DNA of 64,000 nucleotides. Origin: Parafrankia irregularis. GTDB lineage: Bacteria; Actinomycetota; Actinomycetes; Frankiales; Frankiaceae. How positions within the stretch are numbered: the first letter of the stretch is position 1; each line of letters begins with the position of its first letter. Below are positions 14,571 through 60,995 of this stretch, piece by piece. The stretch is taken from contig NZ_FAOZ01000024.1 of NCBI RefSeq assembly GCF_001536285.1, positions 1 to 64,000 on the forward strand. Direction: 5' to 3'. The notes below the pieces were generated by a model, which was given only the letters and a program-made list of their open reading frames with translations, was not told where the DNA came from and searched no databases. A program made the translations under genes and the position numbers.

Positions 14571-14680
14571 TTCTGGTCGTTGGGGAGCCTGCCGCGAGAT
14601 CCCGGGCCTCGGCTTTTGGCTGCTGCCGAGCAAGAGTTGAGGATTTTGGTCGTCCTGGCAGCCAAAATCCTCAACTCCTG
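14571..14680. repeat. Dispersed hairpin repeat, long copy
   Basis: About 110 bases beginning GATTCTGGTCGTTGG, with a GCTGCTGCCGAGCAAGAG box, and ending in a 16-bp perfect hairpin (14634-14649 with 14662-14677, core GAGGATTTTGG). The same order of blocks recurs at 62470-62579. It lies directly after the lyase gene and is non-coding. Confidence 0.8.
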
Positions 14681-14780
14681 CGTATTGCCAAACGGTCCTG
14701 CGCCCGTTTTATCTTTCTTGAGGTGAATTGCCGGCGCGGTGCGACGGCGCCGGATGTACCGAATGCTGACCAGGCCCGGC

Positions 14781-54930: not shown

Positions 54931-55584
54931 CTACGGCGCCGGGTGCCGCCCGGCCTGCGTCCTCGGCGAACTGAACAGGTCCGGTGCTGGAAGTGGCAGG
55001 GGCTGAGTGGCTGGCGAGCGCAGCCCTTCGAAAACCAGGGCGAGGTAGCGGCGCCACAGGGTCGGCTGATGGTCGCAGAGCGGCGCGGCGGCCTGGTAGA
55101 TGCCCCGCAGGAGCAGGATGACGTCCTGCCCGGTCACGTCGTCCCGGATGCCCTGCTGCGCCTGGGCGCGGGCGGTGAGCACCTCGGCGATCTCGGTCAG
55201 CCGGTCGGCGGCGGCCTGGACCGCCCGGTTGTCGGCGAAGGCCTCGCCGGAGGCCTGGCAGAGCGAACGGTCGCGGGACTGGAGATCGACCGCCGTGGTC
55301 ATGAACTCGAACAGGGCCGCGGTGGGGTCGGCGGCCTCGGACAGCCGCGTGCCGACCGCGGCGAGAAGGTCGAGCTGATCGCAAATGATCGCGGCGACCA
55401 GATCGTCCTTGGTGGGGAAGTGGCGGAAGACCGTGCCCTTGGCGACGCCGGCCTGCTGGGCAATCTGTGCGATCGAGGCCTGCGTGCCGTGCTCGGCGAA
55501 GACCGTGGCCGCCGCGTCGAGCAGCAGCCGCCGGTTGCGTGCGGCATCGGCCCGCAACCCGGGTGGTTCTGACGCGGCCGACAT
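54931..55584 (-). CDS. TetR-family transcriptional regulator
   Basis: 217 residues from ATG at 55584. The DNA-binding part is AATVFAEHGTQASIAQIAQQAGVAKGTVFRHFPTKDDLV, close in style to the TetR at 46623. The C-terminal domain includes ALFEFMTTAVDLQSRDRSL. It is divergent from the quinone-oxidoreductase-like gene; two 16-bp dyads (55649-55664 and 55688-55703) in the gap are its likely operators. Confidence 0.92.
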   Translation of the reverse strand: MSAASEPPGLRADAARNRRLLLDAAATVFAEHGTQASIAQIAQQAGVAKGTVFRHFPTKDDLVAAIICDQLDLLAAVGTRLSEAADPTAALFEFMTTAVDLQSRDRSLCQASGEAFADNRAVQAAADRLTEIAEVLTARAQAQQGIRDDVTGQDVILLLRGIYQAAAPLCDHQPTLWRRYLALVFEGLRSPATQPLPLPAPDLFSSPRTQAGRHPAP

Positions 55585-55648
55585 GCCTCACCCGTCCGTG
55601 TGCTTCCGCTGGACCAACACAGCCTATGGGTCAACACGGTCCAACAAG

Positions 55649-55703
55649 ATGACCGCCCGGTCATGTTCTCTGTTACGCTCTCGAAAAATGACCGATGGGT
55701 CAT
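55649..55703. promoter_or_regulatory. Two TetR-type operator dyads
   Basis: ATGACCGCCCGGTCAT (55649-55664, 7-base arms) and ATGACCGATGGGTCAT (55688-55703, 6-base arms) are 39 bp apart between the divergent TetR and oxidoreductase genes. The shared ATGACC/GGTCAT arms point to one protein binding both. Confidence 0.8.
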
Positions 55704-55743
55704 CTTCTGGTTCTGGTGCGGGTGGACGACGAAGGAAACGAGG

Positions 55744-56775
55744 ATGCCGGTGACCATCACGATGCGTGCTGTCGTCGCGGACGACTACGGCCCGGTGGAG
55801 CGGCTGGAAGTCAGATCACTGCCTGTTCCCCGGCCAGGCCCCGGGCAGATTCAGGTGCGTGTGCGCGCCTCGACACTCAACCCCGCCGAGGTCCGGGTGC
55901 TCGACGGCTCGATGCGCGACCTCGCCCCACTGAGCTTTCCGCATGTGGTCGGCCGCGACTTCGCCGGCGTCGTGACCGAGACCGGAGACGGCGTGCGCCG
56001 GTTCGCCGTCGGAGACGAGGTCTTCGGCTTCGGATTTCCCGAGAGCATGGCCAACCTCGCCGCGATGGTCGGGTCGCCGCCCTCACTGGCGACGGGCACG
56101 CTGGCCGAGTACGCGGTCTTCGAAGCCGACACCCCGGGCCTCGCGCTTCGTCCCGCCGGTCTGACGGCCGAGCATGCCGCGACGCTGCCCACCGCCGGCC
56201 TGACCGCGCTGGCGCTGGCCCGGGCCGGAGAGTTTCAGCCCGGTGACGTCGTTGCGGTGATCGGGGCGACGGGCGGTGTCGGCAGTGTGCTGCTACCGCT
56301 GCTGTCCACGGCGAAGGTGCACGTCGTCGCCACCGCGAGCCCCGTGGACGACGGCTACGTGCGCGACCTGGGAGCGGCCGAGGTCATCGATCACCGCGCC
56401 GTCGACGTCGCCGACGAGATCGTTCGGCGCCACCCCGACGGCGTCGACGCCGTTGTCAACCTGGCGCTTCCCGGTGACGGGCTCGTCGGTGCGGCCACCG
56501 CGATCCGGCCCGGCGGCCGACTGCTCAACATCGTCTTTCCCGTTCCCGACGCTGCCGCGTTCAGGGGCAAGGACCTCACCGTCCAGACCGTCATCACCAG
56601 CGCGCAGCCGGGCGATCTGGACCTGTTGGCCGCGCAGGCGCTGGACGGATCGCTGCCCGCCGCGATCAGCAGGCGGTACCCGCTCGCGGACGGCGTCCGT
56701 GCCTGCGTCGAGTTCCTGAACGAGCACACCCGCGGGAAGGTTGTCGTCGTCGTGGCGGAAGACGAGGAAGGTTGA
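55744..56775 (+). CDS. Zinc-independent alcohol dehydrogenase-like quinone oxidoreductase (MDR)
   Basis: 343 residues from ATG at 55744 with AAGGAA upstream; ATG 55762 is possible. GroES-like N-terminal part: RPGPGQIQVRVRASTLNPAEVRVLDG and FPHVVGRDFAGVV. The NADP loop is VAVIGATGGVGSVLLPLL. No zinc-binding Cys/His set is present, which fits the quinone-reductase or enoyl-reductase group. LVGAATAIRPGGRLLNIVFP and ISRRYPLADGVRACVEF close the fold. Regulated, by inference, by the divergent TetR. Confidence 0.9.
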   Translation: MPVTITMRAVVADDYGPVERLEVRSLPVPRPGPGQIQVRVRASTLNPAEVRVLDGSMRDLAPLSFPHVVGRDFAGVVTETGDGVRRFAVGDEVFGFGFPESMANLAAMVGSPPSLATGTLAEYAVFEADTPGLALRPAGLTAEHAATLPTAGLTALALARAGEFQPGDVVAVIGATGGVGSVLLPLLSTAKVHVVATASPVDDGYVRDLGAAEVIDHRAVDVADEIVRRHPDGVDAVVNLALPGDGLVGAATAIRPGGRLLNIVFPVPDAAAFRGKDLTVQTVITSAQPGDLDLLAAQALDGSLPAAISRRYPLADGVRACVEFLNEHTRGKVVVVVAEDEEG

Positions 56776-57565: not shown

Positions 57566-58837
57566 TCAAGGTCTGTGGGGCACGCGGCGGTTGGGCGGGC
57601 TGACCATGGTGTCGCCGGCTGGGCTGGCGAGGCGTCGTTCAAGATAGACGAACGCTTCGATGGCTTCGGGGGCTTCGAACGCACGATTTCGGCGTCCAAC
57701 CGTGACCTGGCGGAGAACGCCGACATCGACGAGACGGTTGATCGCCTGGTTTGTTGCCTGCAGGCTCCGACCTGCGAGTGCGGCAGCAGAGCCGACGGTC
57801 AGCACCGGCGTCGCGGGGAGCAGGTGCACGATGCGTTCCAGCGTGGAGTCGGCGCGCACGCGGCCGGCTCTGCGGAGCCAGTCATTGCGAAGCGTTTCGA
57901 GGCGCTGCTCGAAATCGACGGCATCCGCACACGCGCGGGTACAGGCGGCGGCGAACAGCGCGACCCAGGAATCGGTTGCCACCTGCGCCTCGTCGGAAGT
58001 TGCCGGACCCACGTAGTGAGTAGCGGAAAGCGCCGCGAGGTACTCACGGGACCAGGTCGCGAGGATCAGGGAGACAGGGGGTAGGACACCCGCTGCGAGC
58101 CCGCGGCGCCGCAGCAGCATGTGGATCAGTGCGCGGCCGGTCCGGCCGTTCCCGTCGACAAACGGGTGGATCGTCTCGAACTGTGCGTGCGCGATGGCTG
58201 CCTGGGCGACGGCTGGAAGACTGTCGTCGGCGCAGAACGCGCAGAGGTCTTCGAGCAGGTCGGGCACGGCCTCAGGGGGCGGTGGGACGAAGGCGGCCGA
58301 GCACGGGTTGTAGCCGCTTCCTCCGATCCAGTTCTGTTCGGTTCGAAGCTTGCCGGCATGCTGCTCCAGGTGGCTGGCGGTGAGCAGGCGCCGGTGGACA
58401 TCGAGCAGAGACGCGACAGTGATGGGATCACCGACACCGACCAGTTCGGTCGCACGTACCATTGCGTCGATGTTGGCCAGTACTTCGGCCGCGGTGATGT
58501 CGGTGGCGGGCTCGCCGAACCCGCGCGCTGCCTCGGCCCGCAGGAGGCGTCGGCCGCCGACCTCGAGGCCTTCGATCCGAGATGAGGCGACCGACTCGGC
58601 CCGCAGAAGGATGCGTGCCAGCACTTCGGTGCCTCGTAGTGCGGAGGCCTCGCGGTCGAGCCGGCTGATTGCGACCTCGGCCTCCGCGACATCTGCCGCT
58701 GTCGCGGCATCAAGACGCCACGTCCGGCCGACCAGGCGGTCCGGCAGGTAGGCGTCGTAGTCGCAACCGAGCCTGTCTCGCCGGGACAGCCCTGCGCCAG
58801 GATCGCTCTCCCAACGCTGCCGTAGGAGTTCAGCCAT
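57566..58837 (-). CDS. Fic-domain protein (AMPylator-type)
   Basis: 423 residues from ATG at 58837 behind GGAGG. The Fic core motif HPFVDGNGRTGR is near residues 223-234, with the catalytic His first. An N-terminal inhibitory helix motif SSRIEG (S/T-x3-E-G/N) is near 85-90, which places it in class II, where the Glu blocks the ATP site until released. A C-terminal winged-helix-like part follows (VLTVGSAAALAGRSLQATNQAINRL with VLRQVTVGRRNRAFEA). It would transfer AMP to a target protein. A 17-bp inverted repeat lies across its translation start region. No partner antitoxin is adjacent. Confidence 0.9.
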   Translation of the reverse strand: MAELLRQRWESDPGAGLSRRDRLGCDYDAYLPDRLVGRTWRLDAATAADVAEAEVAISRLDREASALRGTEVLARILLRAESVASSRIEGLEVGGRRLLRAEAARGFGEPATDITAAEVLANIDAMVRATELVGVGDPITVASLLDVHRRLLTASHLEQHAGKLRTEQNWIGGSGYNPCSAAFVPPPPEAVPDLLEDLCAFCADDSLPAVAQAAIAHAQFETIHPFVDGNGRTGRALIHMLLRRRGLAAGVLPPVSLILATWSREYLAALSATHYVGPATSDEAQVATDSWVALFAAACTRACADAVDFEQRLETLRNDWLRRAGRVRADSTLERIVHLLPATPVLTVGSAAALAGRSLQATNQAINRLVDVGVLRQVTVGRRNRAFEAPEAIEAFVYLERRLASPAGDTMVSPPNRRVPHRP

Positions 58838-58845
58838 CTCGACAG

Positions 58846-58886
58846 CCTCCATAATCAAGGTTATGTCACAACCTTGATTATGGAGG
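58846..58886. promoter_or_regulatory. 17-bp perfect inverted repeat at the fic start
   Basis: CCTCCATAATCAAGGTT (58846-58862) and its exact complement (58870-58886), loop ATGTCAC. The arm nearer the fic gene contains its GGAGG ribosome site. It is either an operator for an autoregulator or an RNA hairpin hiding the ribosome site. Confidence 0.8.
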
Positions 58887-58927
58887 AGTCGACTTCAAGG
58901 TTGCCGTTACCGGGCCAGGCGCGTCGA

Positions 58928-59395
58928 TCAGTCGCCGGGAACGGTGCCTGGCGCTGGGAGCTGTGCTGCCGGCTGGGCAGCTTCCTCGTCGGTGAGCAGG
59001 CGGGAGCGGGTGAGGAAGCGGTAGCCCTCGGGTGCCTCCAGGCTGAAGCCGGCGCCGCGGCCGGGCACCAGGTCGATGGTCAGGTGGGTGTGCGACCAGT
59101 ACTCGAACTGGGCCGCGCCGATGTAGACGGGCACGCCTTCGCCCGGCACGGCGTCCCCCGGGGCGACGTCCTTCCCGACGCCGATCACGCCGAGGAGGAC
59201 GTCGCTGTCACCGACCAGAAACTCCCCGCGCGGAAAGCACATCGGCGACGAGCCGTCGCAGCACCCACCCGACTGGTGGATCATCAACGGCCCGTGCTCC
59301 TGGGCGAGGCGGCGCAGCATGGCGAGCGCGGCAGGCGTGGCGTCGACCCGGGTCACGTCCGTGCTGTCTGCGCTGTCTGTGCTCTCCTGGTGCAT
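58928..59395 (-). CDS. DUF779 family protein
   Basis: 155 residues from ATG at 59395. Conserved motifs: LMIHQSGGCCDGSSPMCFP (three Cys, possible metal site), FLVGDSDVLLG, and VYIGAAQFEYWSHTHLTIDL. DUF779 genes usually accompany acetaldehyde or alcohol dehydrogenase genes, as here: the aldehyde dehydrogenase gene ends 77 bases upstream on the same strand. Probably a helper for the dehydrogenase or its metal supply, which is inference. Confidence 0.9.
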   Translation of the reverse strand: MHQESTDSADSTDVTRVDATPAALAMLRRLAQEHGPLMIHQSGGCCDGSSPMCFPRGEFLVGDSDVLLGVIGVGKDVAPGDAVPGEGVPVYIGAAQFEYWSHTHLTIDLVPGRGAGFSLEAPEGYRFLTRSRLLTDEEAAQPAAQLPAPGTVPGD

Positions 59396-59471: not shown

Positions 59472-60995
59472 CTAGAAGAAGCCCATCGCCTTGGGGGAGT
59501 AGCTGACCAGCAGGTTCTTCGTCTGCTGGTAGTGGTCGAGCATCATGCTGTGGTTCTCCCGGCCGATCCCGGACTGCTTGTACCCGCCGAACGCCGCGTG
59601 CGCCGGGTAGAGGTGGTAGCAGTTCGTCCAGACCCGGCCCGCCTGGATGTCCCGCCCGGCCCGGTAGGCGAGGTTGCCGTTACGGGTCCACACGCCGGCG
59701 CCGAGGCCGTAGAGGGAGTCGTTGGCCTGGGCGATCGCGTCGTCGTAGCCGTCGAAGGAGGTCACCGACACCACCGGCCCGAAGATCTCCTCCTGGAAGA
59801 TCCGCATCCGGTTGGTGCCCTGGAAGATCGTCGGCTGGACGTAGTAGCCGCCCGAAAGGTCGCCGCCCAGCTCGGCGCGCTCGCCACCCAGGACGAGGCG
59901 GGCGCCCTCCTTCTTCCCGATGTCGATGTAGGAGAGGATCTTCTCGAGCTGGTCGGAGCTGGCCTGTGCGCCGATCATCGTGTCGGTGTCGAGCGGGTCG
60001 CCCTGGCGCACCGCCTTCGTGCGGACGGCCGCCGCGTCCAGGAAGTCGTCGAAGATCGACCGGTCGATGAGGGCGCGGGACGGGCAGGTGCAGACCTCGC
60101 CCTGGTTGAGGGCGAACATGGTGAATCCCTCCAGGCACTTGTCCTGGAAGTCGTCATGCTCGGCGAGGACGTCCCTGAAGAAGATGTTCGGGCTCTTCCC
60201 GCCGAGCTCCAGCGTCACCGGGATCAGGTTCTGGCTCGCGTACTGCATGATCAGGCGCCCGGTCGTGGTCTCACCGGTGAAGGCGATCTTCGCGATCCGG
60301 GGCGATGACGCCAGCGGCTTGCCGGCCTCGACGCCGAAGCCCTGCACCACGTTGAGAACACCGGGCGGCAGCAGGTCCGCGATCAGCTCCCACAGCAGGT
60401 TGATGGACGCCGGTGTCTGCTCGGCGGGCTTGAGCACGACGGCGTTGCCGGCCGCGAGCGCCGGCGCGAGCTTCCACGTCGCCATCAGCAGCGGGAAGTT
60501 CCACGGGATGATCTGCCCGACGACCCCGAGCGGCTCGTGGAAGTGGTAGGCGACGGTGTCCTCGTCGAGCTGCGACAAGGTGCCTTCCTGCGCCCGGATG
60601 GCGCCGGCGAAATACCGGAAGTGGTCGATGGCCAGCGGAATGTCGGCCGCCAGCGTCTCGCGGACCGGCTTGCCGTTGTCCCAGGTCTCACCGACCGCCA
60701 GCAGTTCGAGATTCGCCTCCATCCGGTCGGCGATCCTGTTGAGGATGTCGGCGCGGGCGGCCACCGCCGTCTTCCCCCACGCGGGTGCGGCCGCATGGGC
60801 GGCGTCGAGGGCCTTCTCGACGTCCTCGGCGCTGGAGCGGGCGATCTCGGTGAAGGCCTGGCCGGTGACCGGGCTCGGGTTCTCGAAGTACCGGCCCTTC
60901 ACCGGCGGCACGTACTCGCCACCGATGATGTTGTCGTAGCGCGACGCGTAGCGGACTGGCGAGCCCGGTTCGCCAGGGCGGGCGTAGATGGTCAT
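59472..60995 (-). CDS. NAD-dependent aldehyde dehydrogenase (acetaldehyde dehydrogenase/ExaC type)
   Basis: 507 residues, complete. Landmarks: [53 protein letters not shown], the catalytic Glu in [13 protein letters not shown] and the catalytic Cys in [34 protein letters not shown] and [16 protein letters not shown] near the C-terminus are typical. It oxidises acetaldehyde or related aldehydes to acids. Forms a unit with the DUF779 gene and is divergent from a GAF-type activator, whose binding repeats at 61066-61087 lie between them. Confidence 0.93.

Follow-up and report, generated by a model that had tools for sequence, protein, structure and literature searches.

The inverted repeat just upstream of the fic gene of Parafrankia irregularis is, in all likelihood, the operator of the winged helix carried by the Fic protein itself, probably an autorepressor site accompanied by flanking half-sites. 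A perfect dyad precedes the gene, dyads of the same constant geometry recur upstream of its relatives, further half-sites accompany them in a 40-bp array, and residues 360 and 361 of the protein co-vary with half-site positions -8 and -6. Comparison of sequences makes it very likely that the tail of the protein and its site have changed together across many bacteria, in a readable code.

For SoFic-type proteins, one may ask what keeps a potentially toxic Fic enzyme quiet when it has no antitoxin gene. The answer to which the data point would be encoded in the gene itself, with the C-terminal domain acting as a sequence-specific repressor: if the enzyme's own tail reads the operator, a protein that may be toxic is able to turn its gene off. 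One Fic protein that regulates its own gene is already known, CccR, described in passages of PMC9755527, and it is by analogy with this Yersinia protein that the present locus is best read as autorepressed. As for a family-wide Fic operator with a 40-bp array and a residue–base code, none was found in searches of open-licence PubMed Central papers. Such a recognition code can be read from genomes, and it offers a prediction of cross-regulation between paralogs that share a cell.

The fic gene and its upstream repeat

The DNA analysed here (the window) is a stretch of 64,000 nucleotides. The features of the gene and of its upstream region are the following:

57566..58837, minus strand: fic gene, ATG at 58837, 423 aa, with Fic_N, Fic and a C-terminal winged helix (Pfam, translation, AlphaFold2 model)
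58846..58886, minus strand: full inverted repeat, 17-bp arms and 7-nt centre (sequence, dinucleotide shuffles)
58850..58882, minus strand: predicted main operator, half-sites 58869-58882 and 58850-58863, 14 nt each (geometry common to relatives)
58864-58868, minus strand: centre of the main operator, 5 nt, axis at 58866 (geometry common to relatives)
58895..58903, minus strand: third half-site, 9/9 identical, in register with the right half-site of the main operator, at 40 bp on its upstream side
58846..58850, minus strand: GGAGG, presumed ribosome-binding site, at the outer edge of the start-proximal arm (sequence)

The repeat is as the preliminary description gave it: its 17-bp arms, 58846-58862 and 58870-58886, are complementary at 17/17 positions, and the GGAGG of fic lies within the start-proximal arm. 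None of 50 dinucleotide shuffles of the fic upstream region produced a dyad as good. The same description had considered that an autorepressor could bind this DNA. This proposal is now strongly supported by the recurring dyad of constant geometry, by the half-sites at 40-41 bp and by co-variation with the recognition helix, and the autorepressor would most likely be the Fic protein itself.

We can outline how this may work. The C-terminal winged helix would bind the repeat; the bound form is most likely a dimer in which each half-site receives one recognition helix. The bound site would cover 13-45 nt upstream of the ATG, so that transcription of fic would be blocked; blocked by its own product, the gene would keep the enzyme scarce. 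More subunits would be able to bind beside the first pair, perhaps cooperatively, at the additional half-site lying 40 bp upstream and, in many relatives, at another 40 bp downstream.

Recurrence of the operator among fic relatives

The preliminary description had suggested a search for the repeat at other fic genes. Relatives were gathered in a scan of GTDB contigs, the first batch consisting of the best 80 listed, while more exist. An upstream region passed the operator rule with at least 8/12 pairs, at least 7/10 inner letters and a spacer of 5-7. Dyads of the same geometry were found in 69 of the 79 regions of the first batch, that is, the window and the 78 best-listed relatives with a 5′ end (shuffles, 58/790). 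They were also present in 21 of 28 regions of the second batch (shuffles, 47/870, where the 29 regions of the shuffle run include paralog L085, which fails) and in 44 of 58 of the third (shuffles, 38/580). Two loci without a 5′ end, L028 and L079, were left out of the 79, and L041, a duplicate of L010, was not counted as a pass. From the third batch 19 of 77 loci were left out before counting, 16 as weak hits below 150 bits and 3 without starts; obtained with the same query, this batch holds relatives of earlier rows and represents new data that are not phylogenetically independent. The relatives among the matches listed belong to Actinomycetota, Chloroflexi, Gemmatimonadetes, Acidobacteria and Eremiobacterota, among others.

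The half-sites of the main dyad are 5-6 bp apart, while flanking half-sites stand at 40-41 bp. When the dyad beat at least 48/50 shuffles, which was the case in 53 of the 79 regions, its axis fell on a base (odd length) in 46. As a consensus, half-sites read approximately CTTA-T/G-T-N-AAGGTTA, and 95% have T at -2; the inner letters are favoured by the operator rule, which scores inner consensus letters and therefore biases the frequencies at -1 to -5. Positions -6 and -8 are scored by the rule as pairs only, never as letters. Position -1 is peculiar throughout the family: the innermost pair is asymmetric, a left G facing a right A-type mismatch being common, as in the operator of the window. 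Mismatches at this position are 26 of the G.U type against 8 of the A.C type, perhaps because a promoter element overlaps the centre.

Some observations count against reading these dyads as operators. Fourteen of the 58 third-batch regions fail, including those of the four next-closest relatives, L209-L212 (71-75% identical). Inspected by eye, these four display another inverted repeat, CATATTCAGG...CCTGA-T/A-TATG, together with T at residue 361. A sigma-70-like promoter pair was looked for in 58780-59050 and none was found; nor did a TTGAC signal peak in 115 aligned operators, so that overlap of the operator with a promoter is hypothetical. Among the passes, L114 and L167 (GC-rich, 146 bp from the start) are likely to be false operators.

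Relatives located on viral contigs are distant (23-35% identical). Three of the 17 usable ones pass, but shuffles often pass in such AT-rich DNA. On two of these contigs, L143 and L144 (33-34%), half-site-like repeats flank the inferred start of fic at -30 and +30 bp, not 40; chance passes are frequent in DNA so rich in AT. In L011, a 59% relative, the frame stops 77 codons after the inferred start and the upstream region is without a family-type operator.

A 40-bp array of half-sites

Extra copies of a locus's own half-site were sought in its upstream region. The 40-bp period was noticed in the first batch, that of the best-listed relatives, where 39 of 61 matches lie at 38-42 bp, nearly all of these being either the right half-site upstream or the left half-site downstream; a control with the half-site reversed gave 2 matches, none of them at this distance. 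It was then tested on the other two batches. The proportion at 38-42 bp was 8/12 in the second (reversed control, 0/2) and 22/28 in the third, 20 of these in the same orientation (reversed control, 2/5). Independently of such searches, the base profile of 115 distinct operators displays A.CCTT.A upstream and AAGG.T downstream. The third half-site of the window, 58895-58903, is also kept in L208, which is 89% identical. With the reading centre taken as position -7, successive half-sites are 21, 19 and 21 bp apart, about two helical turns, and would thus lie on the same face of the DNA.

Domains and structure of the Fic protein

The protein displays the following features:

58568..58585, minus strand, codons 85-90: SSRIEG, class II inhibitory motif (conservation; motif class as in CbFic2 and CccR, as far as the passages on these proteins go)
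58133..58168, minus strand, codons 224-235: HPFVDGNGRTGR, Fic active-site motif (conservation in 67/67)
57629..57856, minus strand, codons 328-403: winged helix-turn-helix domain (AlphaFold2 model of this part alone, Foldseek)
57725..57763, minus strand, codons 359-371: recognition helix, helix 3 (DSSP on the model; co-variation)

Class II Fic proteins are defined by an N-terminal inhibitory helix with a (S/T)xxxE(G/N) motif. The product of fic matches the Pfam models Fic (2.2e-21) and Fic_N (2.8e-12), and the Fic core motif HPFx(D/E)GN(G/K)Rxx(R) is present as HPFVDGNGRTGR. The segment S85-S-R-I-E89-G90 has the form expected of the inhibitory helix, and the modelled region precedes the Fic core. 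In an alignment of 67 proteins, which omits those with an early stop or a cut end (six from the first batch, three from the second), S85, S86 and E89 are invariant in 67/67 and G90 is found in at least 90%; H224, P225, F226, D228-R232, G234 and R235 are likewise invariant in 67/67. The class II motif announced in the preliminary description is therefore present and conserved. What suggests that the protein might inhibit its own nucleotide transfer via the glutamate is this conservation of the motif.

The AlphaFold2 model of the whole protein has a mean pLDDT of 91.4 and ends in a winged helix, with helices at 332-339, 348-355 and 359-371 and strands at 376-380 and 384-388. Modelled alone, residues 328-403 reach a pLDDT of 92.6. 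The best PDB neighbours that Foldseek finds for this isolated domain are mostly of the MarR type and other winged-helix proteins, ribosomal ones among them; no Pfam HTH model scores above its cut-off on the C-terminal part.

Co-variation of the recognition helix with the half-site

Each of 358 protein columns was examined in 80 relatives, the sharing of residues being compared with the sharing of half-site bases beyond overall identity. The column that co-varies most is residue 360 (z 9.4), while 362, 361 and 363 rank 2, 4 and 7 of 358; in the AlphaFold2 model, residues 360-363 are the first residues of helix 3 (359-371). When single positions are considered, residue 360 is linked to base -8 (z 20), residue 361 to base -6 (z 8.7). 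A partial Mantel test indicates that identity of the winged helix explains operator similarity beyond identity of the Fic core; the effect is small (0.12), with 3 of 500 permutations as high. The alignment used for the code omits L114 and L041; L032, L120 and L137, of doubtful register, were omitted from the co-variation scan onwards, and L127 is truncated.

The resulting code was noticed in the data and tested on the third batch only, the table of 80 rows being made of the rows of the first two batches. In this table residue 361 is associated with base -6, in both arms, as Q-G (6/6), R-C (5/5) and A-A (59/62), and residue 360 with base -8 as Q-C (12/14), R-G (7/8) and P-A (22/30). The 44 passes of the third batch gave, for residue 361, Q-G 3/3, R-C 3/3 and A-A 29/31, one miss being L167, probably a false operator; for residue 360 they gave Q-C 9/10, R-G 2/2, P-A 6/8 and K-G 3/5. 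Pooled over 116 distinct rows, the counts become A-A 82/87, Q-G 9/9 and R-C 7/7 at residue 361, and Q-C 19/22, R-G 9/10, P-A 26/36 and K-G 4/6 at residue 360. V or A at residue 360 gives no sharp prediction of the base. We infer that base -8 of the half-site is read by residue 360 and base -6 by residue 361.

Leave-one-out prediction over 232 arms retrieves base -6 from residue 361 in 93.5% of cases, against 79.3% with the majority base and 72.8% with the nearest relative. At base -8 the residue reaches 71.6%, the majority base 41.8% and the nearest relative 64.7%. Base -10 behaves otherwise: residue 359 predicts it in 70.3%, no better than the nearest relative (73.7%), and its association with columns outside the winged helix counts against a code at this position. 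On a tree built from the Fic core alone, at least 4 changes are required for R361 and at least 5 for Q361. The direction seen in independent pairs agrees with expectation; 361=A alone brings the sign test to 0.05 (median p 0.016), while for Q and R at 361 there are too few such pairs.

RNA hairpin or DNA operator

The symmetry might serve the RNA. The preliminary description supposed that the transcript could hide its own start: a hairpin in the fic 5′ leader would mask the ribosome-binding site and limit translation, the symmetry of the DNA being a by-product. Indeed, a minus-strand fic RNA that includes the two arms has a fold of -45 kcal/mol (z -7.45) with GGAGG paired, and an RNA starting at 58870, inside the centre, is no better than shuffles (z -0.81). 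As a conserved function, this nevertheless finds no support family-wide. Mismatches at arm positions -14 to -2 of 124 operators are G.U in 54 cases and A.C in 49 (p 0.69), or 80 and 57 if position -1 is included (p 0.06). The distance from axis to start varies between 14.5 and 130.5 bp among the first-batch passes, and a crude search for an SD-like motif in 124 relatives placed it inside the arm in 31, outside in 59 and nowhere in 34. The closest relative, L208, has kept the operator and the -40 half-site but lacks the CCTCC partner of the SD (it folds at -33.4). Moreover, the size of a loop is free to vary in RNA, yet the geometry is constant, and a hairpin predicts neither the extra half-sites at 40 bp nor the co-variation with the helix. 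We hold the hairpin by itself to be improbable.

Something of the idea survives close to the start. In 37 distinct operators abutting it, pairing beyond the arm amounts to 3.0/8 against 2.48/8 in a flank-swap control (p 0.008), a modest excess that is absent from 78 operators far from the start (p 0.44) and that gives p 0.08 in a six-pair comparison of the near-start operators. Arm mismatches in this subset are G.U 17 and A.C 6, and the excess is striking in L160, L213, L163 and L216, where the symmetry extends over the SD, as it does in part in the window; G.U pairs in the extension are below the swap control. Both layers might coexist: around an ancestral, shared operator, palindromes near the start would have grown outwards over the SD, so that leaky transcript would be poorly translated. 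The near-start data join here with the evidence for the operator, against which we must set subset statistics that are post hoc, uncorrected and drawn from few loci, and the lack of the extension in L208. We see in this a possible, not a probable, complement. As to the three levels at which the preliminary description would have toxicity limited, the operator speaks for transcription and motif conservation only for intramolecular inhibition, whereas for translation there is no family-wide support as a conserved function, though it might apply in the near-start subset.

Dyads are common regulator sites, and this one could belong to another regulator controlling fic. A neighbouring partner gene was sought among the ORFs (90 aa or longer) that surround 65 loci and rejected, no family being present in more than 3 loci; in addition, the half-site co-varies with the Fic recognition helix better than with the 357 other columns of the same protein, which makes a foreign regulator very improbable. 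Finally, the repeat is one of several strong ones among the 43 inverted-repeat pairs reported in the window, as might be expected of a chance palindrome or the remnant of a mobile element. We give this last idea hardly any credit: it is refuted by recurrence upstream of relatives, with constant geometry in several phyla, and the third half-site in register also speaks against it.

Comparison with known Fic systems

With an operator read by the protein's own winged helix as the preferred reading, CccR of Yersinia pseudotuberculosis is the obvious term of comparison. Passages of PMC9755527 present it as a class II Fic protein and T6SS effector whose C-terminal HTH represses its own gene via a palindromic site; a review of 2026 (PMC12894286) names it in the one passage where the words 'own promoter' occur. 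The likeness extends to the Fic enzyme, the inhibitory motif, the C-terminal HTH and the inverted repeat, CccR being described as a dimer on DNA. Here too, a palindromic site lies upstream of the protein's own gene, and a C-terminal DNA-binding HTH is predicted by a confident winged-helix model with winged-helix neighbours in the PDB. The footprints differ: in that of CccR, as given in PMC9755527, 26 bp separate the two 10-nt half-sites of a single pair (AGATAATCAT-N26-ATGATAATCT), whereas the half-sites of the fic operator are 5-6 bp apart and repeated at 40-41 bp. By analogy, the fic system appears as a relative of CccR in mechanism, with a different type of operator. The PDB entry 7xux, which we take to be the structure of CccR, is a distant structural match only (20% identity). 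Over almost its entire length, the fic product has its closest solved relative in a FIC-domain protein of Mycobacterium marinum, 7cb8 (phmmer 3.7e-55, Foldseek 1.6e-22, 34% identity), deposited as a nucleotide complex and crystallised with CDP; one literature search that combined three terms yielded no publication on it.

CbFic2 of Coxiella burnetii is, like the fic product, a class II Fic protein with a C-terminal winged HTH, which in CbFic2 binds DNA (PMC10628234). According to passages of that source, DNA binding is proposed to switch the protein, as a dimer, from AMPylation to deAMPylation; it was tested with random DNA, and these passages report no specific operator. CbFic2 is an effector acting on histone H3 (PMC10628234), a role that we do not claim for the fic product.

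The fic product also resembles SoFic-type anti-phage proteins without being a SoFic equivalog, to judge from profile searches. It matches the SoFic model of PADLOC at 9.4e-72, as do 67/67 aligned relatives at 0.001 or better, PADLOC giving no cut-off; with the NCBIfam equivalog NF046030 it scores 57.1 bits, the cut-off being 550. In passages of PMC12249575, Sofic is a toxic AMPylase whose C-terminal domain controls activity, and a term search of this source returned no mention of palindromes or DNA-binding. Sofic of E. coli has a small downstream antitoxin gene, AS1 (same source). Here, by contrast, an antitoxin-like downstream gene was sought among segments of at least 25 aa at 154 loci and rejected, no family recurring in more than 5 loci, all of them close relatives.

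One may go further and imagine a widespread class of orphan Fic proteins as self-contained single-gene modules, each with a private operator of four half-sites at two-turn spacing, read by a code of one residue for one base. DNA-bound subunits would be enzymatically silent, by analogy with the change that DNA binding brings to CbFic2 activity. Release – for example when a phage takes over the cell or host DNA is destroyed – would at once lift the repression and set the enzyme free to act, the operator being repressor site and tripwire alike for a SoFic-like defence. We offer this extended scheme as a speculation, itself rather unlikely.

Genomic context

The site seems private to its gene. When the genome of the strain (9.5 Mb, 82 contigs) was searched with the 21-bp inner pattern, no other site had fewer than 2 mismatches and four places had 2; with up to 3 mismatches there were 49 matches, below the 75 of the reversed pattern. 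Among six genomes of the genus an ortholog is present in this one only, the others having matches at most 45% identical over short stretches; in the family, orthologs are L208 (89%) and L209-L212 (71-75%). Four paralogs fail the operator rule: L002 and L003, from the same genome, and L085 and L090, from a genome of the same genus. L002 (contig C10, 40% identical) has, by eye, a dyad TTTCAGTTA-CAGCA-CTACTGAAGC directly before its ATG at 1275, perhaps a private operator of its own.

Directly upstream of fic, on the minus strand, a gene for a DUF779 protein stands beside an aldehyde-dehydrogenase-like ORF (58928-59395 and 59472-60995); at the 65 loci compared, these are not recurring neighbours of fic. 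Two similar palindromes at 55646-55706, of the types ATGACCG...CGGTCAT and ATGACCG..TGGGTCAT, lie between two ORFs whose names come from reading their translations, one TetR-like and pointing left (54931-55584), the other alcohol-dehydrogenase-like and pointing right (55600-56775); the palindromes look like an ordinary TetR operator pair. Elsewhere in the window, the inverted repeats 2426-2501 (36 nt, 83%) and 14630-14681 (20 nt, 95%) have arms that share the word CCAAAATCC or its complement.
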